Below, piece by piece: positions 20,478 through 64,000 of a stretch of DNA of 64,000 nucleotides (its first letter is position 1; each line of letters starts with the position of its first letter). A program made the position numbers and the translations under genes. The notes beneath the pieces are model-generated. The model did no database searches, was not told the DNA's origin, and was given only the letters and a program-made list of their open reading frames with translations. Location: assembly GCA_016165875.1 (NCBI GenBank), contig JABBOT010000080.1:13732133-13796132 (forward strand), written 5' to 3'. The DNA comes from Acanthopleura granulata. Lineage: Eukaryota; Mollusca; Polyplacophora; Chitonida; Chitonidae.

Positions 20478-23400
20478 TTATTGTTTGTCCCCAGATCCCA
20501 GATCTGGCCCTGCGACTTCGGTAAAAGTGAGCAAATTCCCTTTATTGGGGTCATCCGGGCGGCAAACTTTGCATTTCTGCAAACAAACCACAACGGCAAA
20601 TCTTTGTAATCCATATACACTGCAATATTATATAGCAAGGACACTTTAGGTACATACACCTGGGCCAGCTTGCACAAAGCCCTCTTAATGTTACGAGCAT
20701 TTATTGGCTAGTGCTTTTCGCCGTAGCCAAGAATAAGGATATTGTACTTATACGATCGACTGCTTATCTGAGCATGGAAGAAACCAGAAAACCACCGACC
20801 TTGGCCAGATACCTGACAAACCACCTGACTTAAAGCCTCTGTCGAACTGTATGGAACTGGATTCGACCACGCGGCCTCATTGGTCATGTGTGCCGCTAAG
20901 ACGAAAACCCTTCAAAATTTACTACTCTGCATTAGCCGCATTATAACACCCGTACATACCTTATATAAGCCGGAGGTCCTGTTGCCATTGCCGTCATATG
21001 CTATTTCACCTCTAGTACATGGAACGGATAAACAGACAAGGGTCATAAATATATGGAAGGATCATATATATAGGTAGTGGAATTATAACAAAACTGTGTG
21101 GTTGTACATGATTTGAGTTACCCATTATTTACTGGGCGCGTGGCTTTGAAGTATAAATCATTATTTTAAGTGTGTAATTGGTTTTACAACGGAAATATCG
21201 CAGTAAATACAGTTGTAGGTGATGATTAAACAGCTATACACGTTTGTTATTTGCATTAAGCATGGTCTAAGCAAGCTATCTGCCGGTATTACAGTTTCTT
21301 TAAAATGACGATTATAACGTACGTCAAACTGACACGTGGTTAAGAAATGTCTTACCGCCCCAAGATTACCACGACAAACCGTCTCAAATCGTGCATCAGT
21401 TTAGCCAACAGACTTTTGTGTTCCTTCTTGAGGATTTTGAACGGACAGCACAGTTTCTGAAAGCGAAATTCGGGTAAGTGTTTAAAACGCATGAGACTTC
21501 TTGCCGACGGGAGGGTTTATAACTGAAGATAGGTCCTCTTAATATATACAGATTTCTCGTCAACGAGAGCGTTTATAAGTATAACGTTACGGGAGACTTC
21601 TTACCATCGAGAACGTTTATAACAAGCAGCACAGTAGACCTTCTATCAGCGAGAGCGTTTGTAACCAACAGTACAGGAGATCTCTTACCAGCGAGAGCGT
21701 TTATAACCAACATTACAGGAAGCCCCTTGTCAGCAAGATCGTTTATAACCAACAGTACAAAAGATCTCTTACGAGCGAGAGCGTTTATGACCGACATTAC
21801 AAGAGATCTCTTCCCAGCGAGAACGTTTATAACCAACACTGCAGGACATCCGTAATGTTTATAACTCAAGTTAGTAGAGATCTCTTACCGCAAGCAGTTT
21901 GCTCCTGGTGTTCATCTCTTCCTGCAGTAGTAGTCGGTATTTCTCCACACTGGACAGCAGATTGTCGCTCTCCTTCTCCAAGTCTTTCTCACTTTCATCA
22001 AGGGAAATCTTCCTCATATGTTTGATGTACCTTTGAAAACCTTCCATCAAGGCCTGAAGAAGAAAATCCATGAACGTGCCATGTAATAACCTTATAACGA
22101 AAACATTAACGTACGATTTCTCAACGGCTTAAAATTATCAGTTACAAACAAAAGACTTGTTCTTCATCTGATCTGTATTGGGCCTAATTGTTTTAAACAC
22201 ATTTTTCTGTTGAGTCTTAATTTATGGGTTCGAATATGTAACGGTCAGAAAAGCATATACATAATTAGAACTACAGATGTATAAGGCATACGATTTTCTC
22301 GCTTTTATATGCAGTCAACACCATAGTTAACTCAAAATCTGTAAGTTTACTATTAAATTTTACTAGTTAAGGCCAAACCATATCCAAGGTTCATTAGGGT
22401 CATATACACTACTTAACCACTTGCAAGTTTGCAATACCATCTATACCTACTAACCACAACAAAGATTTACTAGCAATATTCACTAGATTACTAAGACTAT
22501 ACTTGAACAGTTAGTCACACGATTGTTTTTATTATTTATATATTCTAAATGATCCCATCAATACGTTCAGTTTTCTTGTCTATAAAAGTGAAACAAATTC
22601 ATATTTACCAGTCTACATATGTATCATTAAACCGAATCAAAGTGCTAGTAATTATTCCTTGTAAATTGACCAGTCTATACTTGGACACACCAAGGATTAC
22701 CTGTCTGCTCTTGATCAGCTTCCTCAGCAGATCGATTTCAGTTTTGAGAGGCTTGGTCAGTTTTCCAGTGACGTCACAAGTATAGGCACTGGTTAACTTC
22801 ACAGCATATTTTAACCTGCCACTGGAAAAATAACAAACAAAACCTGTCTTATGATGTTTTCCTTAGTTCAACTCTGCAACAAGGTATAGGTCTACAGTTA
22901 TCTTTAAAACATTGGTTTAAATTTAAATCAGAAAACCCAGTTATCTATAGAGCAAAGAGAAGTTATTTATCTATTCATTCATTTGATTGGCGTTTCATGT
23001 CGTATATGGGATTTTTTTCACTTAAGTCGCGTTCACGCGATGTGATTTGTCCAATTCTAGAACTTGTGTGAAATTACGTTTTCTCTTGTTCTCAGTCGCT
23101 ATCATGCACCATGCGTGTGAATGCTGCTTAACTACACCTCAGGTTTACGGATGGAGGGAACCGGAGAACCGGAGGAAACCATCGATCCTTGCCGAGCCAA
23201 ATCCCCGAGAACCTCTCGCTAAATGAAAAGTCATCCACGTATGGGCAAACATAACACGTTCGTTGGTTTAGCCAACGAGGGCTGCCAAGCAAAAGTTATT
23301 TTATAGGTTTCATAAAATTTATTTTGCAGTGGATAAAATGGCCAACTTAATTTTGAAAACTTAAAAGTAAAACAGCATACAGAAACTGGAACACTGCAAA

Positions 23401-26380: not shown

Positions 26381-26924
26381 CGAGCGGTCGATCGTGGTCG
26401 GATCAGGAAGCAGAAGTCGACTTTATTTTGGCGGTGATGTTTGAATATGCACGTCTTTGAGCTGGAGGGACGCCAGTATGTCCCGGACTGGACAGTCGCA
26501 CTGTCGCTGTAAGAATTTTAGCTATAGATTTCCAGATAGAACTGTCGTGTTGTGGATGTTGTTGTTGTTCACTGTAAGTCTTTGACCTTTTCAAACACTA
26601 AAGCACTTTTTTTCTTGGAATTTATGTATACAATGGTTATGAAAATGTCGCTGAAAATGATTTGTTTGTATGATTAGAGATATGGGCTGCATAAAACTGT
26701 GCAAATTATTTCTCTACACCCCATAGCCCTCTCATAATATTTCAAAATATTGATTGCAGAGTTGGTTGAAATGGTTGAAGAATTAGGGTACTTCAGTAAA
26801 CACTCTGACGCACCGGGCGACCTGGCGGGTGGCCCTAATCCGAATGACGAATGACGGTGATAGACGACTGACAATGCTCTGTTTACATGAAGAATGATCC
26901 CTTACTATGGGAAAACGAATCACA

Positions 26925-31397: not shown

Positions 31398-31525
31398 ACT
31401 TAAGGACGCTAGCACCCCTGATAAGCAACATTTCTCGTTTTGTGTAGCCCAGAGTATTGTTCAGATTTGGCCATATGTTTATATTTTCTGAAAGATAAAC
31501 AACTGCTGATTTCAGAAAAAGCACA
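31398..31525. repeat. Fragment of inverted-repeat element M4
   Basis: TTAAGGACGCTAGCACCCCT followed by GATAAGCA, TTGTGTAGCCCAGAGTATTG and ACTGCTGATTTCAGAAAAAGC matches the left end of the 1-kb element at 35884. Confidence 0.55.
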
Positions 31526-31716: not shown

Positions 31717-34700
31717 ATGCCACCAGCAGTCAAGGGAGATAACCTGTGCGTTCCAAGGGCGAAGGCCAAGGGTATTGTTGTCATAGTAGCGGATCCCAGA
31801 CAGAGGGCCAGTAGTGAAGAAAAAAGAAACTTTGTGAACTCACAGCCGACTACAATCAAAGCTGGATATCCGGTAAATCTTGAAACATTCATGGAATTTG
31901 TGATTGGTTTGTACAATGTTAACACAAATCGCAGCACTCTGATTGTGTAAAATATGTGTTTTATTGTTGTTGTTTTTTTCTTTTGCTGTATGTTTCTTGA
32001 TGTAAATCAAGAGATCACTTAACTTAAATCCGAGTATATCTACTCAACATTTGGGTGAATTAGGTATGACTATAAATTGGCTGAATAGGGTGTCATGTCA
32101 GATGTCCTTAGCATTGTGTGTTTTAACAGTCAAGCCAATTAAACAGGAATAGATTCAGGTGCTTAAATGTGTTTTTGGATGTACTTGAAGGTCAGTTATT
32201 GAAAAAATAACGATATTCTGCGGGTAATGTTACTTTCACTCTGGACAGCACTGGCAGGATGAAACATAGCCAAGGAGCCGGGCTACATGTCTATCATAAA
32301 AGAGCAACATCCATTTGCACTGAGACTAAAATCTGTTGTCATAATGTGGTGTATTGCAAATGGACACGTTTGTAATATGGAAGAAATGATGATGAAAGTG
32401 ATAACGACCTGTAAGAAGACAGTAAATGGCTTTGTTTCAGCTGAGGTTGTTGCTGCCGGAGACGGCGGGGGCCCGCAGTGGTTGCCCTTGGATCTACCCA
32501 CTGACATACGGTGGGGGGTTAGTTGGCGGGGACAGCATTGAACTCAACATCACCGTTGGAGAAAACTGCTGTGCCTTGCTCACATCACAGGAATCGTCAA
32601 AGGTATAAGTAAAGGGGTTTGGGGTTTGGGGGGGATAGCGCACTAGTGCAGCATAATGACCTAGGTGTGTCTTAGCAATGCCATCGGGGTGAGTTCAGGT
32701 CTAGTTCAAACTGGCTTCCTCTCCGGTCGTATGTTGGAATGTCTGCCAGCAACCTCCAGATGGTCGTGGATTTCCACTGGGCTGTGCTCGGTTTCCTCCC
32801 ACCATATTGCTGGCCACTGTCATATAAGTGAAATCTTGTTGAGTACGGTGTAAAACACCAATCAAATAAATAATTAAATAGAAGAGTAAATCTTGCCTAA
32901 ACCTCTAGGAGTTTAAACAAGGTACATGCCTATAGACGGTTGTCAGATTGTCAGCCATTATCAAGGTCATCTGGTACAACATTGTAGCTACATTGTGTGG
33001 ACTTACTTTCTGACAAATAAGTATACCTAAGGCAAGCATGGGCTTCAGGACAGAGCCATCCTTAAAAAAATTCTCAGTTGTGGGTAAAGAAATCCCATCG
33101 CAGAAAATAGGGTTGGTCGATCGTTGGGGAAATATTTTTTTTTATTCCCGCTAGTGAGATAGATAAGGATTTCAAAGAAATTAACATGGAGAGAAAAATA
33201 GAACAAAAATTCCATCTAAATCCCAAGAAAAACTTTAGTGTGAGGTCCTTTTGTGGAGGTTCAGTCGCATTACCACAACAAACATATTTTTAATGATGTT
33301 CCAGCAATCCAGCGATTAAAAGAGTAAGGAATGAGAAAATGTTGCAGGTATATCATTGCGAAGGTGGAAAGGTGTCCAGTCAGACGTTGAATGTGACGAT
33401 ACACGATGGTGGTCTGCTGTGTGTCCTTCAAGATCCAGTTGTCTGCTTCAAGGATGCCAACTACATTCAAACTCAGGTAATCACAGTCCTCAAGGTGACA
33501 ACTGCATTCTGACTCAAGAAATCACAGTCGTCAAGGTTACAACTACATTCAGACTCATGCAATCACAGTCCTCAAGATGACAACTACATTCAAGATCAGG
33601 TAATCACAATCCTTAAAGTGACAACTACATTCAAACTCTGGTAACCACAGTCCTCAAGGTGACAACTGCATTCTGACTCAAGAAATCACAGTCGTCAAGA
33701 TCACAACTACATTCAGACTCATGCAATCACAGTCCTCAAGATGACAACTACATTCAAGCTCAGGTAATCACAATCGTTAAAGTGACAACTACATTCAAAC
33801 TGCGGTAACCACAGTTGTCAAGGTGACAACTACTTTCAAACTGAGGTAATTAAGGTGACAACTACATTCAGACTCGGGCAGTCACAGTCCTTAAGGTGAC
33901 AACTACATTCAAACTCAGGTAATCTCAGTCCTTAAGGGGACAACTACATTCAAACTCCGGTAACCACATTCGTCAAGGTGACAACTACATTCAAAATGAG
34001 GTAATCGCAGTGTTTGAGATGACAGCTACATTCAAACTCTGGTAACCACAGTCCTCAAGGTGACAACTGCATTCTGACTCAAGAAATCACAGTCGTCAAG
34101 ATCACAACTACATTCAGACTCATGCAATCACAGTCCTCAAGATGACAACTACATTCAAGCTCAGGTAATCACAATCGTTAAAGTGACAACTACATTCAAA
34201 CTGCGGTAACCACAGTTGTCAAGGTGACAACTACTTTCAAACTGAGGTAATTAAGGTGACAACTACATTCAGACTCGGGCAGTCACAGTCCTTAAGGTGA
34301 CAACTACATTCAAACTCAGGTAATCTCAGTCCTTAAGGGGACAACTACATTCAAACTCCGGTAACCACATTCGTCAAGGTGACAACTACATTCAAAATGA
34401 GGTAATCGCAGTGTTTGAGATGACAACTGCATTCAAACTCAGGTAATCGCAGTCTTTAAGGTGACAACTAGATTCAGACTCAGGTAATCACAGTCCTTAA
34501 GGTGAGCACTACATACAAACTCAGTAATCAAAGCCTCAGTGTAAATCAGTCATATAAGCTCAGGTAATCACAGTCATCAACTCCTATCAAATAGAGGTTA
34601 TGTATTAGCAAGTTGTCCAGCATTCGTCTGTCTGTTTGCTGTGCATCTGTTAAACCTTTCCTTCAGAACACTACTCCTCCTACAGCTTTTGTCTGATTTC

Positions 34701-37700
34701 AACAAAACTTGGGTCAAGTGTAGATGACATCAAGATACATAATTTGTTTTATTGATTTTCCATTTCGATGATTAGTTGTCCGTCTGTGTGTCTTTTTATA
34801 CAAAATATGTTCACATTTTCAGAACGATATTCCTCCTGCAGTATTTGTTCGATTTCAGCTAAACTTAAATCAAGTATAGACTACATCGAGATACATAATT
34901 TGTGGGATTGATTTTCTGTTTTGATCATTGGTTGTCCGCCTTTCTGTCTGTTTATCCAGGATATGTTAACATACATGTATCTTTCAAAATGCTATTCCTC
35001 CCACAGTTTTTATCTTATTGCAACAAAATTTTGTTGAAGTGTAGACTACATCAACATACATAAATTTGTAGGACTCCTTTATGATTGTTAAATACTCACC
35101 TATTTTCAGGGCAGTTTCTGAGTGTCCTGTCCAGTCCAGTCTCACTGAGAGAATCGTTTGGGATGGTGTTGTTTGATTAGACATCATTCTATTCAGAACT
35201 GACTGCTGTAATTTTGAAGTATTGTACTGCTCTGTCGTATCGTTGTAAAAAAGTGTGCAGGAGCTGAAGTGAAGTAACTATAAATTATGCCATTGTCATC
35301 ACATACCTTATGCACATACAAATTTCACTGCTCAAAAGGCAGAGAAAGTATGCACCTTAAAATCCATGTGTAATGTGTTCATCTGTGTACACTTTGGAAG
35401 TTCCTTTCATTTTTTTGTCAGGTGATTAACATGGTTTGCCGTGGCAACCTTGCACTTCTTGATTGGTTTCTGGCAGGAAGAGTGGCACGTGATGAATTAT
35501 GGGAATTCCACAGGTAAGGTGGGTATTTGAATGAAACGACAAATACACTTTCTGTCAGATTGACCATGATATTTCACAGATAGTGCACGGCATGGGATGA
35601 TATCACAGGAGTCGTGAGGTCAACAGAAATGATGTTCAGTGAGTGCGGAGCACGAGTTGAACATCAATTGTTTAGAGCTCAGAATTCCTGTAATATTATC
35701 CCAAGGCATGTGCTATATTTTTTATTGTACTGAAAGAAATTGGAAGAGAAAGGAAAAGATATGAACTGCCCGGCTGAAGCCCTAAATTGCTTGACTTTAT
35801 GTCATCGCCATCTGACAAAACCATCGTATGAATGAGAACGGAGGAAAGGAAATGACCATGTAGAATAAATGCACAACATCATTGGTTAAGGATACTGGAA
35901 CCCGTCGTAAGCATAATTTCACATTTTGCCTTGTGTAGTCCAAAACATTGAGGAAATATCCCCATATGTATATATACTCTGAAAACTAAACGACTGCTGA
36001 TGTCAAAAAGCATTTAAAATTTATATCACTTTAGTATCAATCAAATAAAGAGAAAGTTTGAAAAAAATCGGAGCTGTTTTTCAAAATGCTATTTTTTTTA
36101 CCAATTTTAAAAATTTTAAATTCTTTTTTTCCCCAACTGGATAATTTACCATCCCAACTAGAAAACAGCACCACAGACTTTTAATATTCACCTCAGATTG
36201 CTCTGAGTGATCACTTAAAGTTAAAACTTTCAAAATTGTAAAAAAAATGGAAACTTTAATGTTCTTTTACTAATATTTTTAAAACTAGAAAAAATGTCAA
36301 GAACTTGTGGAACCATTTTTTAGCTTAAATTCTTAGCTATATGTGTGCCAAGTTTAACAGCATTTTGTGGAAAAATACGCGAGAAATATAAGTAATTCAT
36401 GACACAACCATCTCAAAACTAGAAAGGGAGAAGAAGGCCAAAATGTCTGGAGGAGCATTGTGTGTGACAAAAATGTTAACATATCAACCTACTTACGGCA
36501 AATTTTCAAACTTTTCATGCTCCGTGGTAGCATAAATTGGTCTGTTATCTTGATATTTCTGAGCAAAACCTGCTAGAATGTGTTTGTAAACCCCTCCCCC
36601 AATGGCACCCCGGTGGGGTGCACAGTTTATAGCAGGAAGCAATATACATTTACCTGAGGCATGTCTATTCACAGCAGGTAACCTCCTTCAGTGAGTTAAT
36701 CCCCCTAATCAGGGGGAACTAAGAAAACACAATTGCCCTGTTTCACAACATGTAATACTTTTTGTCAAATTTTAGGTATTTACTATTCGAATTTGGTTTT
36801 CATCGTTAAGTGAGAGGAAAGATAGGAGAATGGAGAATAAGAATGTGAAATAAAAAAAATTTGACCAAATTTCACCCCTGAGGGGTTCTAGTATCTTTAA
36901 ACCAAGACACCCTGTTATGATGTGTATGATACCCTAAATGACCTAAAATTTCGACCAAAAAGTCCTTTTTTAGGTACAAACTATTACCATGGGATATAAT
37001 TTTTGTTTCTGAAAATTTTTTGAAACATTTTTCCACTAGGGTATTGTCCTAGCTACAGAAGAAATCTCAAAACATCATTTTAAAATCAGTAAAGCGCTCA
37101 GAATCAAGAAAAATGAACCACTAGATAATGCACAAATTTTTAGATCCTTTAGGGTATTATACACACATATGATATGTGTTACCTGTGCAAAGCAGGTGAA
37201 AGGTGTTATAATGCAGTTGTTGCACTTTAGGTTTGTGAACAGACTGGATGTGGTGGTGGACAATGAGCTGATTCTGAGAGAACATGCTGATCTGAAGGAC
37301 ACCCGAAACATGACACTACAGGCAGCCATGGGCAGGTGGCAGGTATGTGACGTTCATTGTGTGTATTAAACCAGTCTGTGTTGTTACACACCCAAACAGC
37401 AGACTGTGATGATCCGAGGGACACCCCAAACATGACACTGCAGGCAGCCATGGGCAGGTGGCAGGTATGTGACGTTCATTGTGTGTATTAAACCAGTCTG
37501 TGTTGTTACACACCCAAACAGCAGACTGTGATGATCCGAGGGACACCCCAAACATGACACTGCAGGCAGCCATGGGCAGGTGGCAGGTATGTGACGTTCA
37601 TTGTGTGTATTAAACCAGTCTGTGTTGTTACACACCCAAACAGCAGACTGTGATGATCCGAGGGACATCCCAAACATGACACTGCAGGCAGCCATGGGCA

Positions 37701-45554: not shown

Positions 45555-48500
45555 TTACATGACACTACAGGCTCGGCTTGTGACCTTGGGCGTTCCTGCA
45601 GTAGAGTTGTCATGGTTGTCTCCCTTGTTCAGGGCCCGTAATGGCGGGCGCTTCTCAGCGAGTTGATTTTCATCAGATTTATCATCATCCAGATCTTCAT
45701 GTTCCACAGAGGGGCTGGGCTTTGTTTCTTCTGGGGGAAAAATGAATATATTCCTCTTAAAAAGTATGGATGACTGAACCAATTTATCGTGAAAAATAGA
45801 ATTTCTGGTAATACTTGTTATATGTATAAATTGAAAGCTGCAAATACTACAGGCATTCCATCTTCTGGAGCATGTAAAAATGATCGTAACCACCGTATGG
45901 TATGGCTGGTTCCCATATACTCCAAATCACCTTCAGTTTGGAGAAACTTGAATCAATGTAGAGTTTTACACTAAAGCTCTTCCCTTCCCCCCTCAAAAAT
46001 TGTACTCAATGCCCCATACAACATATAAAGCAACTTCAGAGTTGTTTGTGGCAGCTGGCCTCCAAGCATTAGAAGAAATACAACGATTTGCTTTTTAATA
46101 TCTCCCAAAACACCTACGTCATTATAATCCCATTCTTCCTCCAATCCTTGCTCCACAACTGAAGATTAAGCCACTTACCCATGTTTTGTGCGGGCTGATT
46201 ACCCTTATCTGCTGGTATGACAGGGTTGTCAATGGCTGGAGTGTTCAGTTTGTTGGCTGGCTGATGTTTCTGACATAACCACGCCGTTTTGCCATTAGAA
46301 AGCTGACACCTGATAAAGAAATGTACAACATAATATCCATTAGCTAACACCTGGCAGAGAAATGTATGGTGAAACCCATGAGTTTACATCTAGAAGAGAA
46401 ATGTACAATTAAGTCAACTCTTTTATTGTCCTCTCAACAGAGGTAAACTGACAGAAAGCAGGGTTTCATGGGCGACGTGTGGCCACTATCGTCATACTAC
46501 TATGAATGTTGCACAGCCTACGCCAATCAACTTTTAAAGACGACACATGGAGCCTGTCTCAAACGCTACACTTAGTCTTGTTGGTTAGCTAAGCTGTACA
46601 AAACTTGAATTTGCCCTGAACTGGCAGAACTATCCATAACTGGGCCTAGCTCATTCTGACACAATGAATTCAAGGCTTGTGTATGCAGAGGTTTTTCCGT
46701 CATACTTAACAATTTGATGACAATGAAGTCTAGTCTCTCGGCCCTGTGCGCCAAGAGAGACAGCAGCATGTACCGTTTTTTAAAACCTGCGGTATGACCA
46801 GATCCGGGATTAATTCTGGATCTAAGGACCCCGAAGGGGCCACTCCAACCACCAGGCCACCAGGGTAATGCACAGCTCACAATGACACAGTAGAACGTAC
46901 AGGGAATGCGGGCCATCATACTCACTTCTTCAGATTTCCCATGATTCCGTCTTTATCAAGTTCCATCACCATTCGTCTAATTTTTATGTATTCCTCTTGG
47001 AATTCGGGGCCTTTTTTAACACATATCTGTAAGATAAAGAAATAAACAATTTACAGAATGATGATGACTTCACTCTTTAGATACATGGGTTCAATGTACG
47101 AGTACCTGATAGACACAGCTGTTAAACAAGTTCTTTAACTTTATGCTTTTCCTTCAATTGCTTCGAAAAAAGAGGTGTCCTAGATTGAAGGACAAAGCAA
47201 TTGCATGTCGTACATGTCGTGCATTTCAACCACCAGAATTTACAGGTATAACAATTTTAAGTATTATCAACTCATATTGTTATACTGTTTCATGTTAACC
47301 ACTGGACACAATGACTGCAATATTTCCAAGAGGCATTTTTCCATAATAATATTCTAGTACTGAAAATATTCAGGATTACAGAGATGAGACATAGTTTAAC
47401 TTTCACTGTTTAATTTCATCATGAGTTAGCTAAACAAAAAATAGAGAATGACAAAGTTTTACATCACACCTTTTCTTTACTTTTTACATTGCCCAAACAA
47501 TGTAAATTTTTTGGAAAGAAAACAAAAGGTGGGAGATCTGTGTAACATCTGCAGTCTGAGTATAAGGATAGACAGACAGATGGAGCCACATAATATAATA
47601 TTATATACACACATTAAACCCTTTGTAAAAAGATAAATGAAATCCTGGATTTAACATATAGAGTGAATAGTTATATTATGCTGGGTCCAAACTATATTAA
47701 TCCATGTACAACCCTAGCTTACATGTAAGTGATGAAAGACACTTAGGGTATTTACCGAGTCCAGGTATGTGCGCAGGCGTTCTCCCTCCTGCGTGGTCAG
47801 AGAACTCAGAGTGAGGCTGGTGTGCTTGAGAATGGCGAAGAGGCGAGCCATGTAGCCGGCTGCATCTGAGGTGAAGGATTCTTCTTCCTGTGCATTCATG
47901 GCGGGGATGGGAATACTTGGAGAGGAATCATGCCAGCCCTGACAACCAAGGAGCAAGTAACTGGTATAACTTTCGACAAAGCAGCAGCAGGCATGAGTGA
48001 GTGAGTGCTTGGGGCTTAATGTCGTCTTTCGGGTGTATGCATATAGTGTGTCTTCTTGTGACAGGGCAAGCCCATGTCGCCAAAGTGCTGCTGCCACATC
48101 AAGCCAAAGACATCAGACATGACACCCCGCCCAGTCACATACTGGCACTGGGCCGACCAGTGTTTCCTTGCTCTAACCTCCCAATCCCAACTTTGACTTA
48201 ATACTGAGGTGAAGCAAAGTTTATAATGTTCTGTGCAGGCTTCACATCAGCTGTGTCCTTACCTCATCACATTCTCACAGTCAGGTCAAGCACTATTTAC
48301 TGTGCTGTACAGATTTCACTTCAGCTGACTCCTTACCGCAACACTTTCAAACAGTCATGACAGTCAGGTGAAGCAGTATTTATTGTGCTGCGCAGACTTC
48401 ACATCAGCTGTCTCCTTACCTCATCACAATCACATAGTAAGGTGAAGCAGTATTTATTGTACTGGGCAGGCTTCACATCAGCTGTCTCCTTACCTCATCA

Positions 48501-51500
48501 CATTCAAACAGTAAGGTGAAGCAGTATTTATTGTACTGTGCAGGCTTCACATCAGCTGTCTCCTTACCTCATCACATTCAAACAGTAAGGTGAAGCAGTA
48601 TTTATTGTACTGTGCAGGCTTCACATCAACTGTCTCCTTACCTCATCACATTCACACAGTAAGGTGAAGCAGTATTTATTGTACTGTGCAGGCTTCACCT
48701 CAGTTGATTCATCTCCAGGTTTAGACAGTTCTTCCTGAAACAGAGAAGTAGAGGATGATCTAACCAACGTAAAATACAGGTGAAGCAGAAGTATGCTCAC
48801 CATAACACTGTTGTATAAATGAATTATTCTTGAGTACAGGGTACGTTACAAGTCTACAAATGACAATACAAGAACCACACACACCTCATAACACTTAGCA
48901 ACTTTTTCAAACTCCTCCAGAGTTTGCCCTCCAGGGGATATATTCTCAGTATTGCTAGGTTTCTTTGGTTCCGGAGCTATATCCAGTACGATCAGTCTGG
49001 GGTAGGGGGTGCTGTCCATGCTCTCAGCATAAGATGTGACATGACGCAAAAACTTCCTCTGTGTCAGCTCCAGGACTTCCTGTGTGATTAAAACAATAAG
49101 TTCTATCTTTTAAATTTTGAAAATTAGCATTTTTCAGTTTATTCTATATTTCCCCGAAAACAACCCACACTCACTCCCACAAAGTAGAATTAGTGGTTTG
49201 AAAATTCCCACACAAGACAGGGGAAAATGATCCCCATGAAGACTGAGTCTGATTTCAGATTTCATTAGTCATGTGCTGTTCACATGGGAAAAGTCCTCAA
49301 ACCATAAATTTAGCCATTGAGCCTACAAATGCTTGATGTTCTTCAGTTTTACAAATTATTACATGTTTCAGAAAATATCTTGAAACTGATTTATGGCCCC
49401 TAGTTGTGTAAACTGGTAAAACTATTGAAAAAAAGATGTCCTCCCATGAAATGAGTTTTAATACTACAAACGAAAATTCCTTAATCTAGCAGCTGATGCC
49501 CAAAACTGTCTTTTGCTACCTGAAATGCCACAAGCTTTTCATCTTTCACAGGTTGCTTCTCTTCCTGGGCACTCTCCTGTTTTGGGAGGAGCTTTTGTAC
49601 ATGATGCAGAAGATCCATATGAGCTGCCAGATTCTCGTACTGGAAATTGACTTTGGGAAATTCGTACCCCACACACAGCATTCCCACCTGAAAACATGCA
49701 TGCATTTTAATTAAATATGACACGAATCTGTGCTCATTAATTCTTTAAGTGGATTCTCCTTCCCTTATAAGGAAGCAGTAAGCGTGTGCTAGTCTAAGTT
49801 AAAATGGTACCTGAGTGGCTGAGGGGATTACCATGCTAGTGGAGCGCAATGACCCAGGCACCTTTTACTAATGTGGTTGCTGTGAGTTCAAGTCCAGCTC
49901 ATGCTGGCATCCTCTCTGGCCCTAAACCAGGGTGGATCTGCTGCTCAAAAAACCTGTATCAAAATCAGGCTGAATTTATCTGCCATCACAATCTGGACAG
50001 CACAGGATTAATTCTGGTACACAACTGAGACATTGTTAGAAAACTGTTCTCAGTGGCTGGCTATTAACTCACCACTGACGCACCACAAAGAGACTTGTGG
50101 TACACTACTGAGACACTATCGGAAAACTGTTCTCAGTGGCCGTTTGCTCATCACTGGCAAACCACAAACAACTGCAATGCAGAGACATTGGTTGTTGTAA
50201 AACTTTCAGCTTAAATGACACTGTAGCTTGTGGAAGTGGCAAAGGTTCTCAATGTCTACAGCAATTGGCTCACCACAGGAACACAACAAACAAGCTGGTG
50301 GCAAACTGCTGTGATACCTTCAGAAAAATTTTCCATCGCATGGTCTCACATACCTCAGACCTCTCCCATTTGTAGCCTGTCCCTACCACGGCAACAATGG
50401 TGGGGATCTTGAGGGTGGTCACCGCATACCGAAACTCCATCTGACAATTCTTTGACTCTGCATACTAAAAAACATAAGAAATGAAATAACACACAAAGTA
50501 CGGTGCATTACTTGCTACGTTATATAACATTTATCTTTTATGTCTGACAGGGAGTTCGTTGTCATTTAGAGACGTAAGTCTTGCAGACAACATCTCGATT
50601 CAGACAAAGGAGAGGGCTTCACAGAATGATAACGTAGTCGTTTCATTTTACTCACCATATAAATATAAGAAACATATACATATAGGCCTATGATGTTTTT
50701 TGGCAGGAGTAAAATTCTGAAGAACCTGTTCTATTCCAGTAAGATAATAACAGAAATGCTTGGAGCAAATAATACAAGGTGGAAAAGATTCGTTTGCACA
50801 AAACATAATATAAGGTGAAACACAGGAATCAGAGTATTAGCTAAGACGTAAATGATGTAGATTTGACTGACTTGAGGTACGAATATAATTTGTTCCGCAA
50901 TCGCAGACACTTGATATATGATGTGTCATTTTAATGATGTGAATGACACCATTTACAGCAGCCAAATGACTTTAATATGGTGAAACTAAAATGAGTACAC
51001 TATATAATATGATCAAATACTTACTTCATCTGACACAAAAGCAACCATGACTTTGGCTTGTTTTAGACCCTCGGCTATGTCCTCGTAAAGGCCTCCCTGA
51101 CAGTACATAAAACACACAAATTGATATTCACTGTACTGATGTGATTGAGGTTTAACACTGTAATCAAAAATATTTCACATAAGGCTCTGAGAATCACTGA
51201 AATTTGACATGCACCTGACAAACCTTTCGACCCACCCACACCTGTGGCCAAAGGATGAAGCGGAAGGATTTTTCACTTTTATGTACGATGGAAGTCACTT
51301 TTTTTTCGAAAACTGGAGTGTCCAGGTGAACCACCCACTATTGGAAAGTAAGTGACTTCAAGTGGTCCTCAAGAAACAAAAGACCGTGCAAATGGCCCAG
51401 TGGGTATAGCTGGCTGCTTAATCTCACCAGGGTATCTCAAACAATGAGAGAGACGGAATCCAAAAATCCCTGCCCAGGGTCAGGGTTGAACCCGCAACTC

Positions 51501-54500: not shown

Positions 54501-57500
54501 TCCTGTTTCATTGACCTATCCCTGCCATCTCTCCACAGCTATATAATGAAGCGCGACGGTATCCATGGTTATCCAGTTACCACACCTACCTTATTTTTAA
54601 TGGACCTCTGTTTGACGGAGGCGATGAGATCCCCCATCTTGTTGGCAAACTGTTTTGTGTGCTGCATGTTTACGTAGACCTGAACAAATGGAAACAACGT
54701 TAAACAACGAAATGATGTTATGTACTGGCTGAACTTGTAGGCTGGCCAGCATTATTTATACATTAAGAACAGTGGGACCAATTCCACAAGGAAAAAATTT
54801 TGTAATTGTAAATTTCTAAAGTAAAACTTTTAGAAGTTTACTAAAATTAAACGTTTTTGAAATTTTACAACAAACATATGGATGTACGTGTAAATCATGT
54901 TCATGCACAAGTGACACAAATTTCAATATAAGCATCAAATAAACTGTGAAATTGAGCTTAAAGGTTTGGACAAGTCCAACACTGCTTTGTGCAACTGGCT
55001 CCAGATCGCAACAGGATGCCCAGTTCACTGCTTTACCACCAAATCCTTGAATACTTACATCAGTGGCACACAGCATGCCCACTTTACTGGTTTACCAACC
55101 AAACCCTGACATCCCTGAAGACTTACATCACTGGCACAAAGGATGCCCAATATACTGGTTTACCAACCAAACCCTGACAACCCTGAATATTTACATCACT
55201 GGCACACAGCATGCCCAGTATACTGGTTTACCAACCAAACCCTGACAACCCTGAATACTTACATCACTGGTACACAGGATGCCCAGTATATTGGTTTACC
55301 AACCAAACCTTGACATACCTGCATACTTACATCACTAGGACACATTATGCCCAGCTTACTGGTTTACCAACCCAAGCCTGACATCCCCAAATGCTTACAT
55401 CATGGCACACAGGATGCCCAGTTTACTGGTTTACCGACCAAAGGCTGACATCCCAAATACTTACATCACTGGCAGACAGGATGCCCAGTATACTGGTTTA
55501 CCAACCAAAGCCTGACATCCCTGAATACTTACATCACTGGCACACAGGATGCCCAGTTTACTGGTCTGCCACTGGAATCCAGTCCCCAGTATAACCAGGA
55601 TGACTGTTTTCCGGAGAGTTTCTCGTGCAAAGTACAAGAGATCGCTGCACGCCTTGTCTGCAACAAACTCATCAGACATTCCCACCAGGACAACCTGAAA
55701 GAGAAAAATCCACCAAAAGGGTGATTCCAGCAACTCAATCCACTGTATATTTTTCATCAAGCAAGAAGAAAGCAAGGTACAACAGGGAGGTAAATTACAT
55801 ACAGGAATTCATGAAAGAAACCAGTTTCTCTCTTCTTTTTTTAAATGAATTATCCTCATGCTTCTACATGTATTCCTTGTCAGAGTAGAGATTGACTATA
55901 TTTCAATCATTTGACAACTTTGCTGGCTTTGCTGTCATTCAGTATTTAAGTACAAAAGACTTCAGCACAGAGAGTAAAACCAGAGCAGCAACAACAATGT
56001 GATGTCATTCAACTTTTGGAATTTCAACCAATATTTGAATTTTTTTACCTGGTTTTAAGTTTCCCTCTCCTTTTTCATTTTGGACATTTCATTCTCCTAT
56101 GGCTGCATGAAAAGCCAAAGTTATTTTCTTCCTCATGTAAAGCCAAAGTTTTTTGCTGATAAAATAAAATTTCATCTCCATTTCACCTGAACATTACTTT
56201 TCTTTTTTTTTTTTTGTGTCCTGAAACCTTTACCAGTACAGAAAGAAACCGGTACTATTTAAGCTACAGGTAATTTAATTACAAACTTACATCAGCCTCC
56301 TTCATGGTCAGGGTCAGTTTGGTCAAGTCCTCACCACCACTGGCCTCACTGGCTGTCCTGCAAATGTAACGGTTAGCATCTTTCAGTTTCATAGACACTT
56401 TATTCCATTATCATATGCATGTGTAGGCTGGCTTGCTCCTTTCACAAAATGGTTCACAAATTTGTAGAGCTTTTACTGTATTTTTTGTAAATGATCTTGT
56501 ACCTGGTTACAGTACCATAAGGCGTTGTCATTTACCAGGGAAGTTGTCACAAAAAATTGATTTTCAAAGTTTTATGAAAGTGGGTCTAGGGTACTTCTCG
56601 CTGGCTGTATAGATCTTTTTGTCACAAGACCCTTGCTTTCGTGTCCACCTCTTCTATTTAGTAGGAAATCAAACAAGAGTTGTAGCAGTTTTCTTCATTA
56701 TATCTTTTACCTGTACAAAAAACCTTGATATTTTCACAATTTACAATGACAGTCAAGTGTAATTACGCGAGTAAACTATGCTCCATTGCCTGGAGCCTGA
56801 ACTTCAGCCATGTTAGTTCTAACCTGAAGTTAAGGCCAAATCAGCTAGAACTGAATTTGAACCTGAACCCCCCCCCCCCCCTTGTCAGGGGTTGATGAGC
56901 TGCCCTCAGACTGAGAACAAAGACCAAAGAACATCGTGTGAGAGGTCAGTGCCACATCATAACCAGATGTGTGCAAGACCAAAGTATGGTCGGCCACATT
57001 GGATCTGCCATTTACTCCTACTGCATAAGTCTCCAGATGAGGGGCACGTTTCACGAAGAGGGTGTAAGGTTTGGTGAAACTTAACTACCATGGTGACATA
57101 TCTTTACAGTGTGTGCCGTCATGGCACACACTGTAGAGAAAAAAAGCCAACTTCAACTGTATTCCTTACACTTTCATGCCTGATTTTCGGAGCCCTGCAG
57201 AGATGGAGTCTGGGTGGACCATCTTATCATCCCCAACCATCACAGGCACATTGTCTTTGCAGTACGAGAAGTAGACGTTGAGAACCAGGTCGCCATGGAG
57301 ATCCTGTAACTCCCTCACGCTCTTCCCCAGGTGAATGTCAAGGTCAGCAGTTTTATCAGTTGGCATTGCGGCTACAACAACAACTGGTGTTAGTACAGAG
57401 TAGAACAAAACATCTTCATCTTAAGAATATCTGTGAAAGTCATTTTAAACTATGGATAAACAAGTTAATATAGTATTTTTTCTAGTTTTAGCATACTTTC

Positions 57501-60500
57501 AAATAAAAATTAAATAAAACTTTAAATAAATCATTTAAACTGATGAGAAATAATAGGCAACTGTAGGTTGCTGGTCTGAGACATAAACATGATGAACAAT
57601 TATACCTTATCATTTATCTTAAATGGCTGTTTTAGGTAATTTGAATAATTGTGTCTTGGTATACATGTGTATGGCTGGTGCTATTGGTTGTTTCACCTTG
57701 TAGTTGAGGGATGGACAGAGTGTGGAAGTATCTATCACACTGCAGGAAGGGGGCCTTCAGCTCTACTGCTCTCTGCACCTTGGATGCTTGGAACATGCAG
57801 GGATCCAGGCTTTGCTGTGTACAGTGGAGAGTATCATGACTAAAGCCATTTGCTTAATTACTGAAATTCTAAATTCTTTGTAAAAAAAAAGCCAACTAAA
57901 TAAATAAATAAATAAATAAACTTACATACCGGGGAGAGAGAAAATATGAGAAGATTACTCAGTTATACCACAAAACTATGAAGACATATTTCACAATAGT
58001 TTTGTACGTGTACAAAATAAACATTGTCTCACAATGAAACTTGAACACCAGTACAACAGAGTCATTTGCAGGTGGCTTTCTTATACCCACAATATAAGCC
58101 TGTGTTAATCAAATAAGTCAAAAGATAAAAAAAATATCAATATAAAATTTAGGATATGTTATTTCATTAATTTGATGAAAAAGTGTAATTAAACATTAAT
58201 TCCTTGTTAGTATGGACACAGTTTGTCAGAAATAAAATTCATTTATCTATTAAAGTCATATACATGTATTCATGTTAATATCAGATACAGTATATTTCAA
58301 CAAGTTTTTGATTTTTGCCCAAATTTTGTAAGTCATGTGAACAGCATTTCATTAAATGGAACAGAAATATTCAAGATCACAAATTACCATGGAGAAACAA
58401 TGAAACTATTTGATAAACAGGAGAATTTGTCTTAAAACATTTATTTTCAAATAAATTCTTAGTCTTAAATGGGTGTACCTCAGGATCCAAAGTCATGTAA
58501 AAGTTTTATGCTCACCCAAATTAGATGAACAAATGTTTAACAAATTATAAATTCTAGTCTTAGCTCAAACTTTCATCACTAAAGTGTATAGCACTGACAC
58601 ACACACTGTACTTACCACCTCCAGACAGTCACTGCATGGGATGGCGAAATCATACTGTACTCCGTAGAAAGACTCTGAGATCAGACACTCCAACACCTCA
58701 TGGACAAGAAATAAAATGTTCTCCGGCCGCATGCCTTGAACCTTAATCAGCATCTCGTTTACCCTGGAAAGAGGAAATACTCATGAAAGCCTGAAATTCA
58801 TGCATTAACTTTTTCACATTGATGAAGCGATTTCAGCTGGAAAATCAATATGAGCTTTGAGGACACTTTGGCATCTTGCCATACACCTGACAAATCTCTA
58901 TCAGTGGTTATGAGGACACTTTGGCATCTTGCCATACACCTGACAAATCTCTATCAGTGGTTATGAGGACACTTTGGCATCTTGCCATACACCTGACAAA
59001 TTTCTACCAGTGGTTATGAGGACACTTTGGCATCTTGCCAGACACCTGACAAATCTCTATCAGTGGTTATGAGGACACTTTGGCATCTTGCCAGACACCT
59101 GACAAATCTCTATCAGTGGTTATGAGGACACTTTGGCATCTTGCCATACACCTGACAAATTTCTACCAGTGGTTATGAGGACACTTTGGCATCTTTTCGG
59201 ACACCTGACAAATCTCTACCAGTGGTTATGAGGACACTTTGGCATCTTTTCAGACACTTGACAAATCTCTACCAGTGGATATGAGGACACATTGGCATCT
59301 TGCCAGACACCTGACAAATTTCTACCAGTGGTTATGAGGACACCTTGGCATCTTGCCAGACACTTGACAAATCTTACCATGGGCATCTTGCCAGACACCT
59401 GACAAAGCCCCAGTATTAGCTTGAGGAAGCTATTGCATCTTGCCAGATACCCGACAAATCTCTAGCAGAGGAAACAATGGTATCTTGCCACATACTCGAC
59501 AAATCTCCAGCAGTAGCCTTGAGGAAACTATGACATCTTGCCAGATACCTGATAAATCTTCAGCTGTAGCCTTGAGGAAACTATGGCATCTTGCCACATA
59601 GCTGACAAACCTTCAGCAGCAGCTGTGCAGAGTAAGATGACAGGTGTATTTATTTAGAAATTCATGTTCACTCAAGTCAATGGGTAGACCACCTGGATTA
59701 CAAGAGCTGACCTGCCCAGGATCACTTTACATCATTCACCTGATCTCATGTGACTCACCAGACCTCAAGTAATATCTCACTTCACCTCACCTGATCCCAT
59801 CTCAACTGACTCATTTAACTGGACATGACTCACCTTAGATGAATCACTTCATCTCACCTCATCTCACTTGAACTGACTCACCTGATCTCATCTGACATCA
59901 CTAAATTCACCTCACCCACATTCAGCTTACTGGAATTTGACGATCACCATCAAACTAGCCCAATCGCTTGACGCTGTCCATATTGTTATTCATGAAAATA
60001 CATGTGTAGTGTCTTACTCAGTCTGCACAGGCTTAATCAATTTGCAGACACACGTGTAGTGTCTTACTCAGTCTGCACAGGCTTACCCAATTTGCTGACA
60101 CACGTGTAGTGTCTTACTCAGTCTGCAACGGCTTACCCAATTTGCTGACACACGTGTAGTGTCTTACTCAGTCTGCACAGGCTTACCCAATTTGCTGACA
60201 CACGTGTAGTGTCTTACTCAGTCTGCACAGGCTTACCCAATTTGCAGACACATGTGTAGTGTCTTACTCAGTCTGCACAGGCTTACCCAATTTGCTGACA
60301 CACGTGTAGTGTCTTACTCAGTCTGCACAGGCTTACCCAATTTGCTGACACACGTGTAGTGTCTTACTCAGTCTGCACAGGCTTACCCAATTTGCTGACA
60401 CATGTGTAGTGTCTTACTCAGTCTGCACAGGCTTACCCAATTTGCTGACACACGTGTAGTGTCTTACTCAGTCTGCACAGGCTTACCCAATTTGCAGACA

Positions 60501-61711
60501 CACGTGTAGTGTCTTACTCAGTCTGCACAGGCTTACCCAATTTGCTGACACACGTGTAGTGTCTTACTCAGTCTGCACAGGCTTACCCAATTTGCTGACA
60601 CACGTGTAGTGTCTTACTCAGTCTGCACAGGCTTACCCAATTTGCTGACACACGTGTAGTGTCTTCCTCAGTCTGCACAGGCTTACTCAATTTGCTGACA
60701 CACGTGTAGTGTCTTACTCAGTCTGCACAGGCTTACCCAATTTGCTGACACACGTGTAGTGTCTTACTCAGTCTGCACAGGCTTACCAATTTGCTGACAC
60801 ACGTGTAGTGTCTTACTCAGTCTGCACAGGCTTACCCAATTTGCAGACACACGTGTAGTGTCTTCCTCAGTCTGCACAGGCTTACCCAATTTGCTGACAC
60901 ACGTGTAGTGTCTTACTCAGTCTGCACAGGCTTACCCAATTTGCAGAATCAATGCGCAGTGGTTGTTTTTCTTCAGCAAGGATCCTTTCTTCCATATGAT
61001 AGCCTCATCACTGAACTGGTGGAGCCTAACCTGTTACAGGTAGTACAAGATTTGCTTAGAGGGTTGAAGGTCAGAAATGGTATGTAGGTACAAACACAAT
61101 GTACAAAGGACAAAGCACTTAACCCACTGAGAAGGGTGCACTTCTGAGGTGTAGGACTCTCAAAGTTCATTTATTTATTTATTTCAGTTTTGCCTTGCAC
61201 CATACTTGCATTTTTTTCCCCTTTTACCATGTTTTTTTGCAAACCATCAACCTTTGAACAGTTACTGACAAACTTTCTTGCCCATTGGTGGTGGTCGGAG
61301 AAGTGATCTTCACGAAATGTTAGACTGCGCAACCTGTCACAAAAGTGTCATCAACCCTACATTGTCATGATTGTCACCAAGGCCCAAGGAACGGTGACAC
61401 TGGGGGAATCTATAATTTCCCTCTCTAAGGTAGGGTTTGAACCCACATATTGTGGGTTAAGTTAAAGGGCAAGCGCATTTAATTCCTAGACAATGGCCCG
61501 TTCCCATCCTCTGAATGTGGTAAACAGATTGCCAGACATGGCAGAGGAACACGAAAATCCAAACAGCACTTACATGTGTAAATATAAATAAGGACAGAGG
61601 AGAAGTCATTACCTGAACTCTGTTGAAGAGGCCAGCAGGTAGATACTGGAATCTGTACACCATCTTTGTTTCTTTGTGGCCTTTGGCACGGTCTACATCT
61701 GGCCAGTCATA
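45555..61711 (-). CDS. COR-TIR-TIR protein with C-terminal CaaX box (5' part beyond window)
   Basis: Eighteen exons, all minus: 61711-61613, 61030-60936, 58763-58616, 57814-57697, 57371-57170, 56357-56291, 55694-55533, 54679-54590, 52957-52781, 51096-51025, 50464-50354, 49687-49520, 49079-48885, 48734-48642, 47938-47756, 47026-46926, 46309-46179, 45730-45555. Phases match throughout, giving 795 residues plus stop. The first four exons are the end of a COR domain as in Roco proteins (RFQYLPAGLFNRVQVRLHQF, LVHEVLECLISESFYG, FQASKVQRAVELKAPFLQCD). TIR 1 follows (LNVYFSYCKDN, VVLVGMSDEF), then TIR 2 (DYPSCFVSYCWSN, KVMVAFVSDEYAESKNCQME). TIR 2 keeps a Glu in CQMEF where catalytic TIRs have it; TIR 1 has CSDLL. 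The tail is acidic and ends CSVM, a prenylation motif. It is probably an innate-immune or NADase-type signalling protein at membranes. The exon upstream of 61711 is not in the window as an intact copy. Confidence 0.88.
46690..46905 (-). mobile_element. tRNA-like SINE, minor family
   Basis: In reverse: GGTGGCCTGGTGGTTGGAG, then CCCTTCGGGGTCCTTAGATC and CCCGGATCTGGTCATACCGC. The head resembles a tRNA A box. It lies in an intron of the COR-TIR gene. Confidence 0.45.
47985..48165 (-). mobile_element. SINE family C copy
   Basis: In reverse: GGTGTCATGTCTGATGTCTT, CATGGGCTTGCCCTGTCACA, then CATTAAGCCCCAAGCACTCA. Its body matches the copy at 28.2 kb. Confidence 0.65.
48237..48700 (-). repeat. 74-bp minisatellite containing an exon end and donor (COR-TIR gene)
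   Basis: About six copies of a 74-bp unit. The rightmost is the 3' end of exon 48734-48642 plus its donor (GATGAG|GTAAGG), and the array extends leftwards into the intron. Each unit carries ~50 exon bases (CACAGTACAATAAATACTGC, TTCACCTTACTG) and ~24 intron bases; most keep GAG|GTAAGG. Confidence 0.93.
49808..49925 (+). repeat. SINE-A 5' fragment
   Basis: Head with GTGGCTGAGGGGATTACC and TGTGAGTTCAAGTCCAGCTC, cut off after TCCTCTCTGGCCCT. Confidence 0.7.
51410..51545 (-). repeat. tRNA-like SINE head fragment
   Basis: In reverse: GCTCAGTGGTGAATGACTTG (A-box like) and GCGGGTTCAACCCTGACC (B box). No tRNA acceptor-stem pairing was found, so it is not called a tRNA gene. Confidence 0.45.
52260..52650. 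mobile_element. Two SINE-A copies tail to tail
   Basis: A plus-strand copy (52260-52497; head CCGTGGCTCAGTCGCTTAGC, slightly shortened body) is followed after 10 bp by a minus-strand partial copy (52508-52650). Their (AAAT)n tails face each other and form a large imperfect palindrome in an intron of the COR-TIR gene. Confidence 0.8.
53935..54142 (-). repeat. Dispersed repeat R1, copy 2
   Basis: The reverse complement matches 12093-12285: AGGTACCAAACAAGGTTCA, GGTGTCGGCTTACACAACAA and AATGTGGAAAAAACAGCATA. It lies in the intron between the TIR 1 and TIR 2 exons. Confidence 0.6.
54773..55002. mobile_element. MITE, M3-related
   Basis: Left end GGGACCAATTCCACAAGG; right end, reversed, GGAGCCAGTTGCACAAAGCA. 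They are weaker inverted repeats resembling the ends of the M3 element at 39.7 kb. Confidence 0.4.
55010..55575 (-). repeat. 68-bp minisatellite containing an exon end and donor (COR-TIR gene)
   Basis: About eight copies of a 68-bp unit. The rightmost is the end of exon 55694-55533 and its donor (CCAGTGAT|GTAAGT). Each unit repeats ~45 exon bases (CAGTATACTGGGCATCCTGT-like) and ~20 intron bases; most keep GAT|GTAAGT. Confidence 0.92.
57105..57135. other. Perfect 13-bp hairpin beside a donor
   Basis: TACAGTGTGTGCC, loop GTCAT, GGCACACACTGTA. It starts 34 bp downstream (gene sense) of the donor of exon 57371-57170. Arms are perfect, so it could fold in the pre-mRNA near the splice site. Confidence 0.65.
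58855..59620. repeat. 53-bp minisatellite in an intron between COR exons
   Basis: About 10 good copies and several decayed ones of a 53-bp unit (GGACACTTTGGCATCTTGCC, ACACCTGACAAATCTCTA, CAGTGGTTATGA). It does not include either flanking splice site. Confidence 0.9.
59985..60950 (-). repeat. 50-bp minisatellite starting at a COR exon donor
   Basis: About 19 copies of a 50-bp unit. On the gene's strand the unit is GCAAATTGG|GTAAGCCTGT followed by GCAGACTGAGTAAGACACTA; the first copy is the true end of exon 61030-60936 and its donor. Nearly all copies keep TTGG|GTAAGC. Confidence 0.93.
61375..61510 (-). repeat. tRNA-like SINE head fragment
   Basis: In reverse, B box GTGGGTTCAAACCCTACC is preceded by AATGCGCTTGCCCTTTAAC. 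It resembles the minor family at 51.4 kb. Confidence 0.45.
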
Positions 61712-61759
61712 CTGTAAAATTATGAACATATAAAAATTCTTAAAGCCTAAGATGACCCT

Positions 61760-64000
61760 GCCTTTAGTGGGCTCTTTGTCCGGCAGTACAGCATGGCATT
61801 GGATCATTTTGTACCTCTAGCTTCATACTTTGACGATGGCTGGAGGGTAAACCATGAAGGTAAAAACAACCACTTCTGTGTTTTTCTAGTTGCTGTGGGT
61901 CTGAACTCTCCCTACATGCCCATTATGCGTATTGAGAAGGCAGCGCCAAAGAATTCTGGACTAGCTCCATGTACTCTAAATGTTATGAGAACAAGAGTTA
62001 TGGAGTTACCTGGAGCTACATGTGTGTGGCACTACATGTAGGTTAGCTTGCCTACCTTGGACTCTTTGACAGTAAACATTGCACTAGGTTAGCCTGCCTA
62101 CCATAGGCTCTTTGGCTGGAAGTAAACATTGCCCTTGGGTAGCCTGCCTACCTTAGGCTCTTTGGCTGACAGTACACATGGCACTAGGTTAACCTGTCAA
62201 CCTTAGGCTCTTTGACAGTAAACATGGCACTAGGTTATCTTGCCTACCTTAGGCTCATTGATAGTAAATGTGGCACTAGGTTAGCTTGCCTACCTTAGGT
62301 TCTTTGGCTGGCAGAAAAGATGGCACTAGGTTAGCCTGCCTACCTTAGGCTCTTTGGCTGGAAGTAAACATGGCACTAGGTTAACGTCCCTAACTTAGGC
62401 TATTTGGCTGGAAGTAAACATGCCACTAGGTTAGCCTGCCTACGTTAGGCCCTTTGGCTGACAGTAAACATGGCACTAGGTTAGCTTGCCTATCTTAGGC
62501 TCTTTGGCTGGCAGTAAACATGCCACTAGGTTAGCCTCCCTACCTTAGGATCTTTGGCTGGAAGTAAACATGGTACTAGGTTAGCCGCCCTACCTTAGGC
62601 TCTTTGCCATGACAGTAAACATGGCACTAGGTTAACCTCCCTACCTTAAGCTCTTTGACAGTAAACATGGCACTGGGTTAGCCTGCTACCTCAGGCTCTT
62701 TGTCTGGTAGCAACCATGGCACTAGGTTAATCTCCCTACCTTAGGCTCTTTGTCTGGCAGTAAACATGCCACTAGGTTAACCTGTCAACCTTAGGCTCTT
62801 TGATAGTAAACATGACACTAGGTTAGTCTGTCTCCCTTAGGCTCTTTGTCTGGCACTAGGTTAACTATCCTACCTTAGGCTCTTTGTCTGGCAGTAAACA
62901 TGGCACGAGGTTAACCTGTCAACCTTAGGCTCTTTGATAGTAAACATGACACTAGGTTAGTCTGTCTCCCTTCGGCTCTTTGCCTGGCACCAGGTTAGCC
63001 TCCCTACCTTAGGCTCTTTGTCTGGCAGTAAACATGGCACTAGGTTAGCCTCACTACCTTAGGCTCTTTGTCTGGCAGTAAACATGGCACTAGGTTAGCC
63101 TCCCTACCTTAGGCTCTTTGTCTGGCAGTAAACATGGCACTAGGTTAGCCTCCCTACCTTAGGCTCTTTGTCTGGCAGTAAACATGGCACTAGGTTAGCC
63201 TCCTTACCTTAGGCTCTTTGTCTGGCAGTAAACATGGCACTAGGTTAACCTCCCTACCTTAGGCTCTTTGTCTGGCAGTAAACATGGCACTAGGTTAGCC
63301 TCCCTACCTTAGGCTCTTTGTCTGGCAGTAAACATGGCACTACGTTAACCTCCCTACCTTAGGCTCTTTGTCTGGTAGTAAACATGGCGCTAGGTTAGCC
63401 TGCCTACCTTAGGCTCTTTGTCTGGCAGTAAACATGGCGCTAGGTTAGCCTGCCTACCTTAGGCTCTTTGTCTGGCAGTAAACATGGCGCTAGGTTAGCC
63501 TGCCTACCTTAGGCTCTTTGTCTGGCAGTAAACATGGCACTAGGTTAGCCTCCCTACCTTAGGCTCTTTGTCTGGCAGTAAACATGGCACTAGGTTAACC
63601 TCCCTACCTTAGGCTCTTTGTCTGGCAGTAAACATGGCACTAGGTTAACCTCCCTACCTTAGGCTCTTTGTCTGGTAGTAAACATGGCACTACGTTAACC
63701 TCCCTACCTTAGGCTCTTTGTCTGGCAGTAAACATGGCGCTAGGTTAGCCTCCCTACCTTAGGCTCTTTGTCTGGCAGTAAACATGGCACTAGGTTAACC
63801 TCCCTACCTTAGGCTCTTTGTCTGGCAGTAAACATGGCGCTAGGTTAGCCTCCCTACCTTAGGCTTTTTGTCTGGCAGTAAACATGGCACGAGGTTAACC
63901 TGCCTACCTTAGGCTCTTTGTCTGGCAGTAAACATGGCACGAGGTTAGCCTCCCTACCTTAGGCTCTTTGTCTGGCAGTAAACATGGCACTAGGTTAGCC
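61760..64000 (-). repeat. 50-bp minisatellite made of a COR exon end plus donor, running off the window
   Basis: About 40 copies; regular 50-bp spacing from ~63000 to the edge, decayed copies to the left. On the gene's strand each unit reads CATGTTTACTGCCAGACAAA then GAGCCTAAG|GTAGG. In phase 0 this encodes PCLLPDKEPK, a good COR-domain match that would join directly to the exon at 61711 (YDWPD). The true exon should be at the right end, beyond 64000, unless one of the copies is itself used. Confidence 0.88.

Follow-up and report, generated by a model that had tools for sequence, protein, structure and literature searches.

Tandem duplications of exon/intron boundaries, termed mirages, are known from amphioxus, where they reportedly exist without giving rise to aberrant mRNAs (PMC3087553, PMC3902484). 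Mirages are described in Adh3 and the globin genes BflGb6 and BflGb9 (PMC3087553) and also in troponin C and PGBD5 (PMC3902484); according to the same two articles, the name goes back to a paper on the Adh locus (Nucleic Acids Res 2002). Two further systems are related: the minisatellite of human IFI6 (6-16/G1P3) forms multiple splice donor sites (Turri 1995, as cited in PMC4526556), and intron gain by tandem genomic duplication of AG/GT is discussed in PMC3087553. Here we describe seven minisatellites, in three neighbouring genes of the chiton Acanthopleura granulata, that repeatedly copy a 5' splice site. They lie in a stretch of 64,000 nucleotides (nt), the window, at positions 13,732,133 to 13,796,132 of contig JABBOT010000080.1 (assembly GCA_016165875.1). 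A preliminary description of the window knew of no named system of this kind, but the amphioxus mirages match it. The chiton arrays extend this little-known kind of structure to another phylum, Mollusca. We think it probable that they are non-adaptive expansions, tolerated because splicing uses the first, exon-proximal donor.

The window is part of a scaffold of 50,906,754 bases in a single haploid Illumina/Nanopore hybrid assembly (606,523,666 bases, 87 contigs). Tandem arrays were called by Tandem Repeats Finder (TRF), and those of the window were also read by eye alongside gene models. TRF recovered all seven arrays at the places and with the periods given in the preliminary description, whose outer limits were slightly wider (Table 1). 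As it had also claimed, they belong to three neighbouring genes and occur on either strand: two exons of a UreD gene (+), four of a ROC-COR (Roco) gene (-), and a predicted gene at 21.9 kb (-). The Roco protein has a Pfam COR-B match, with COR-A and TIR_2 below their cut-offs; the predicted gene at 21.9 kb has no Pfam match. Every array runs from the 5' splice site of an exon into the intron, and in the gene models the donor stands at the 5' edge of the array in seven of seven cases. This edge placement had been proposed for six; the placement is upheld, but the count is seven, the last exon straddling the window edge (63958-64122). The unit had been said to span an exon end and/or a donor. 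In six arrays it does contain the exon end, contributing 9-62 nt (9, 29, 33, 44 and 62, and 55 in UreD-b, counted from the TRF start); in one of these six, the array at 61760..64000, about 44 nt of exon end are repeated some 40 times. The array of the gene at 21.9 kb repeats from the donor onward only and is the weakest case: TRF places its edge 51 nt into the intron, codon statistics are the sole basis for its exon, and what joins it to the donor is a degenerate copy whose match starts at the donor, with an echo score of 16 (threshold 14; the test is described below). Copies within the window arrays are diverged and have higher-order structure. In the array at 60000..60944, 17 of 19 units have a second GTAAG (score -0.4), placed 19 nt behind the copy.

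Arrays of this kind also occur beyond the window, in loci that we number L. In the Roco gene, more donor arrays lie at L002:9210-9670 and L003:193-756. Behind a WD-repeat-like exon, copies of the exon end with GTGAGT fill 1.2 kb of L008 and continue through L024, making about 3.2 kb altogether; in this intron (C83:1897916-1901170) 87 decoy donors were found, 83 of them with GT. A metallophosphoesterase exon in the systematic sample L017 carries a donor array, an RsmB/F-type methyltransferase gene (NSUN2-like, L013) has them in three introns, and a kinase exon on another scaffold (L035) has a 74-bp array with four decoy donors. Periods outside the window range from 20 to 102. Units that repeat exon end and donor occur in seven genes, and their sequences are unrelated. 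The same anchoring of unrelated units, in other genes and on another scaffold, bears out the earlier view that a recurrent process rather than chance is at work. The claim that arrays always lie downstream of a donor holds within the window but fails beyond it: in the acceptor-side arrays at L002:7648-7898 (Roco gene), L016:3273-3513 and L017:3818-3988, copies of the AG-bearing 3' end of the intron, joined in L016 by the start of the exon, lie immediately before an exon that is either true or predicted. The L017 example is a two-copy array by TRF, ends about 6 nt from a blind acceptor and falls below the echo threshold. Both boundaries are thus affected, and the donor-side architecture is the majority pattern, not a rule.

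Many donors have no array. None was found at the donors of NFS1 (0/9), a GAS8-like gene (0/7) or an Acatn-type transporter (0/5), nor in 13 of 14 kinase loci, and some genes without a donor array have other intronic arrays. At 6073-6311, 8520-9050 and 10138-10491 of the window, the Acatn-type acetyl-CoA transporter gene has three intronic arrays off the splice sites, each beginning about 130-180 nt after a donor. The names NSUN2-like, MPPE1-like, WDR89-like and NFS1 are our presumed assignments from similarity, that of NFS1 resting on the human sequence; for the NSUN2-like and MPPE1-like genes Pfam supports only the broader family, and the WD exon has a sub-threshold match only.

What would the extra donors do? 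Across 12 arrays, GT is kept in 228 of 250 decoy copies, a figure that overestimates retention, since likeness to the true site was the basis for picking copies; the arrays also carry unequal weight. With a splice-site score matrix written from general knowledge, 116 of the 250 decoys match or outscore the true site. High scores and retained GT are as expected if the decoys are harmless in place. When the coding frame is read past the true donor, a stop is met within 1-69 nt in 12 of 12 arrays, implying that decoy use would truncate the protein. If splicing takes the first donor, Pfam matches extend across the array-bearing junctions: 101 residues over 102 profile positions in UreD, 140 over 141 in COR-B and, across two such junctions in the RsmB/F methyltransferase, 166 over 155. 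The simplest reading of these sequences would be that the first donor is used and that the decoys are inert.

We propose that an array would start with a chance tandem duplication across a donor, taking in the GT, part of the intron and 0-62 nt of the exon end, and would then expand by ordinary minisatellite turnover. The original exon would stay intact at the upstream edge and all extra copies would be intronic; the mRNA would be unchanged provided that splicing takes the first donor, leaving the expansion close to neutral. The first donor may be favoured by exon definition, or since it is transcribed first. After an acceptor duplication, by comparison, a decoy AG would lie upstream of the true AG and be met first, a situation that may act as a selective filter. 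If the preponderance of donor-side over acceptor-side arrays is confirmed, this filter would account for it. Downstream of the donor of the Roc P-loop exon (Roco gene, - strand), degenerate exon-end copies missed by TRF lie at about L003:3800-4105, which suggests that old arrays decay past detection.

The preliminary description had called for a comparison of donors with acceptors and with random intron positions, and we made both on sampled loci. For the first we used an echo test, independent of TRF, in which a 40-nt probe centred on the splice site is matched against the 800 nt that lie on its intron side; the same probes against regions of other genes served as the null. Exons were called by homology, by reading and with a small gene finder whose training set was 1,522 codons of the region that prompted this study. 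A blind set comprised 20 systematic 10-kb samples of one scaffold and 14 kinase loci from a domain search, where the site that scored best close to the edge of the domain was taken as the splice position, some of these being weak; L024-L028, which adjoin genes already seen, were left out of it. The systematic samples gave 30 predicted exons, of which eight were judged credible and curated. The 22 dropped included three inside arrays and also L016:3499-3713, which has an array at its acceptor and was put back after a recheck, as that array looks real. Five blind-sample exons, four in the NSUN2-like gene and one in the phosphoesterase gene, were recognised during reading of array flanks.

On the curated list, 15 of 80 donors had copies downstream and 2 of 80 acceptors had copies upstream (p=0.0014). 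Before L016:3499-3713 was restored, the counts were 15/79 and 1/79 (blind, 6/36 and 0/36), and an earlier, smaller list gave 14/65 and 1/65 (blind, 5/22 and 0/22). The enrichment over acceptors weakens to 6 of 37 blind donors versus 1 of 37 blind acceptors (p=0.11). A donor-over-acceptor bias is therefore suggested, in the same direction in all versions, but it is significant only with the prompting region and is not settled.

This blind result is one of several that weigh against our explanation. Without the five exons recognised in array flanks, the blind counts are 4/32 and 1/32 (p=0.36). A fully automated echo test on all gene-finder exons outside arrays gives 4/25 donors and 1/26 acceptors (p=0.19), one of the four donor echoes, L012:4854-4945, being a GC-rich stretch and a doubtful exon; this run supersedes an earlier one (7/28 versus 2/28; 4/25 versus 0/26 outside arrays), in which exons inside arrays had inflated the acceptor threshold. 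Six of the 15 echo-positive donors belong to one gene and three to another, and three of the six blind donor echoes to a single gene, so the sites are not independent. The acceptor-side arrays indicate that the proposed filter would not be absolute. Finally, tolerance alone predicts no donor excess over the rest of the intron, yet 9 of 17 intronic arrays are donor-anchored where 2.0 are expected.

That last comparison comes from 44 delimited introns (43 kb; some may hide an exon). Besides the nine donor-anchored arrays they contain one that is acceptor-anchored, against 2.0 expected by random placement, and nine at donors was reached in none of 200,000 simulations. Chance co-location of arrays and donors is rejected on this simulation. 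Seven of the nine arrays come from the prompting region and two from blind samples, so that selection has inflated the excess. A donor preference over the intron interior is suggested and, if real, needs donor-directed seeding or retention. Seeding of this kind, in which R-loops, nicks, polymerase pausing or replication conflict at U1-bound or transcribed donors start the duplications and ordinary expansion follows, would account for the excess over random placement. It would also fit the echo at the donor itself (14/65), which is as frequent as at +120 to +300, where uniform seeding should give fewer at the edge. Intron-interior probes at +40 to +300 from the donor echo in 14-18 of 64-65 cases, and those lying 40-300 nt before the acceptor in 4-8 of 65, a difference that we count in favour of tolerance with first-donor use. 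We nevertheless regard donor-directed seeding as unlikely. Besides the weight of the prompting region in the excess, an annotation-free test on 35 blind-sample arrays found no excess of donor motifs over shuffled sequence (2 versus 2.3 at a score of at least 5; 7 versus 6.0 at a score of at least 3), a negative result, while acceptor motifs at a score of at least 5 exceeded the shuffles (4 versus 0.9; reached in 1 of 60). Among arrays of the prompting region, the number with a donor score of at least 5 is 7 of 22, versus 1.7 when shuffled. Acceptor-side arrays also appear in the blind samples, and exon-end GC is equal at array donors and other donors (0.493 and 0.494). That a donor-directed process repeatedly makes arrays of up to dozens of near-identical donors, at perhaps one donor in 6-10, from which the spliceosome must pick the first, seems to us similarly doubtful.

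The preliminary description had also raised selection for extra donors, which finds little support. Tandem 5' splice sites might recruit U1 small nuclear ribonucleoprotein and so aid splicing or suppress premature polyadenylation in long introns; the units do derive from donors, most decoys keep GT, and GT varies slightly less than other parts of the unit (mismatches at 22 of 500 positions versus 441 of 6560; p=0.048), though in copies picked for their likeness to the true one. The seven non-GT positions of the donor 9-mer, however, vary more than the rest (194 of 1750), donor motifs in other intronic arrays do not consistently favour the sense strand (higher there in 6 of 10), several conserved genes, including NFS1, have no donor array, and donors that bear arrays are no weaker than other donors (mean score 4.65 versus 3.83; p=0.11). 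With the in-frame stops behind the true donor in all 12 arrays examined, this makes selected arrays a quite improbable alternative. On the same donor scores we reject the idea that arrays rescue weak donors. As for assembly artefact or coincidence, arrays are common in this genome (35 TRF clusters, 15.7 kb in total, in the 200 kb of systematic samples), and the assembly is a hybrid; but the copies are diverged, with higher-order structure, and exon-end/donor units of unrelated sequence occur in seven genes. An artefact is rejected on these grounds, and the two together are very improbable. Non-adaptive expansion tolerated through first-donor use remains the explanation that we favour.

Table 1. 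Donor-anchored arrays of the window and the exons that they follow
Feature	Position	Strand	TRF limits (arrays) or last exon base (exons)	Remarks
Array behind donor, period 42, CTG/GTAAGA-type copies	21540..21888	-	21564-21838	4 decoys found, 3 with GT; 50 nt next to donor form a degenerate copy
Predicted exon ..NTRSKLLA, donor GCG/GTAAGA	21889..22053	-	21889	Codon statistics; no Pfam match
UreD-gene exon ..ANYIQTQ, CAG/GTAATC	33348..33476	+	33476	Pfam UreD
Donor-anchored array, period 41, 401-bp higher-order repeat	33448..34570	+	33448-34538	26 further copies, 18 with GT
UreD-gene exon ..LQAAMGRWQ, CAG/GTATGT	37232..37342	+	37342	Pfam UreD
Donor-anchored array, period 122	37288..38112	+	37288-38112	6 further copies, 5 with GT
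Donor-anchored array, period 74, GAG/GTAAGG	48207..48703	-	48207-48703	5 further copies found, all with GT
Roco-gene exon ..LLCECDE	48642..48734	-	48642	Gene models
Donor-anchored array, period 68, GAT/GTAAGT	55043..55565	-	55043-55565	6 further copies found, all with GT; one GTAAAT
Roco-gene exon ..LGILCASD	55533..55694	-	55533	Stretch with sub-threshold TIR_2 match
Donor-anchored array, period 50	60000..60944	-	60000-60944	17 decoys, 16 with GT
COR-B exon ..ALILQI(G), TGG/GTAAGC	60936..61030	-	60936	Pfam COR-B
Donor-anchored array, period 50, AAG/GTAGGG	61760..64000	-	62070-64000	38-39 decoys found; TRF array runs 1 base past window edge
3' end of exon ..LPDKEPK, then GTAGGG	63958..64000	-	63958	Exon continues to extended position 64122 (L002)

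Three side observations concern repeats more generally. Unit lengths are 2 modulo 3 in 9 of 12 donor arrays (window, L003, L008/L024, L013, L017), possibly by chance. At L017:51-2909, about 40 copies of a 72-bp unit are mostly open in one frame and would encode a 24-residue repeat, VREKVWQQAVEDRESFKLLASSPA, with at least one stop. At 7162-7434 of the window and elsewhere there is a short dispersed element, marked by TTGATTGGTGTTTTACGCC...ATTTCACTTATAC and typical of mollusc genomes.

Donor arrays do not appear to be rare in the chiton, as suggested by the 6 of 37 blind donors, two of which were recognised only in the reading of array flanks. Natural arrays of 5 to 87 near-identical donors offer ready-made experiments on spliceosomal choice between equal sites, and they bear on intron growth and on intron gain through tandem duplication. 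They also call for caution: in genomes of this kind, exon ends may be placed wrongly in gene predictions and in short-read assemblies.

We recognised no molluscan or chiton case of a mirage in the literature searched, which was limited to open-licence papers. Compared with intron gain by AG/GT duplication (PMC3087553), the chiton arrays share a tandem duplication across splice-site sequence but sit inside existing introns. In IFI6, as in the chiton, minisatellite units downstream of an exon carry extra donors; according to the citing article, however, downstream units of IFI6 are used, yielding three mRNAs, whereas in the chiton arrays in-frame stops predict truncation. The amphioxus mirages differ in belonging to Cephalochordata rather than Mollusca. 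They differ also in the balance of boundaries, the chiton arrays being mostly at 5' splice sites (15 versus 2 by echo, a difference that loses significance in the blind subset), and in size, with up to 87 decoys in the chiton against 3 and 6 units in the globin case. The likeness is nonetheless close: in both, minisatellite-like duplications cross an exon/intron boundary, with the authentic boundary at the edge and many copies of the splice signal, and unit lengths are comparable (10-72 bp in Adh3 and 150-160 bp in the globins; 20-122 in the chiton). Like the mirages, the chiton arrays have units of minisatellite size, span the boundary (six of seven in the window), keep the authentic site at the edge (seven of seven) and affect both 5' and 3' boundaries.

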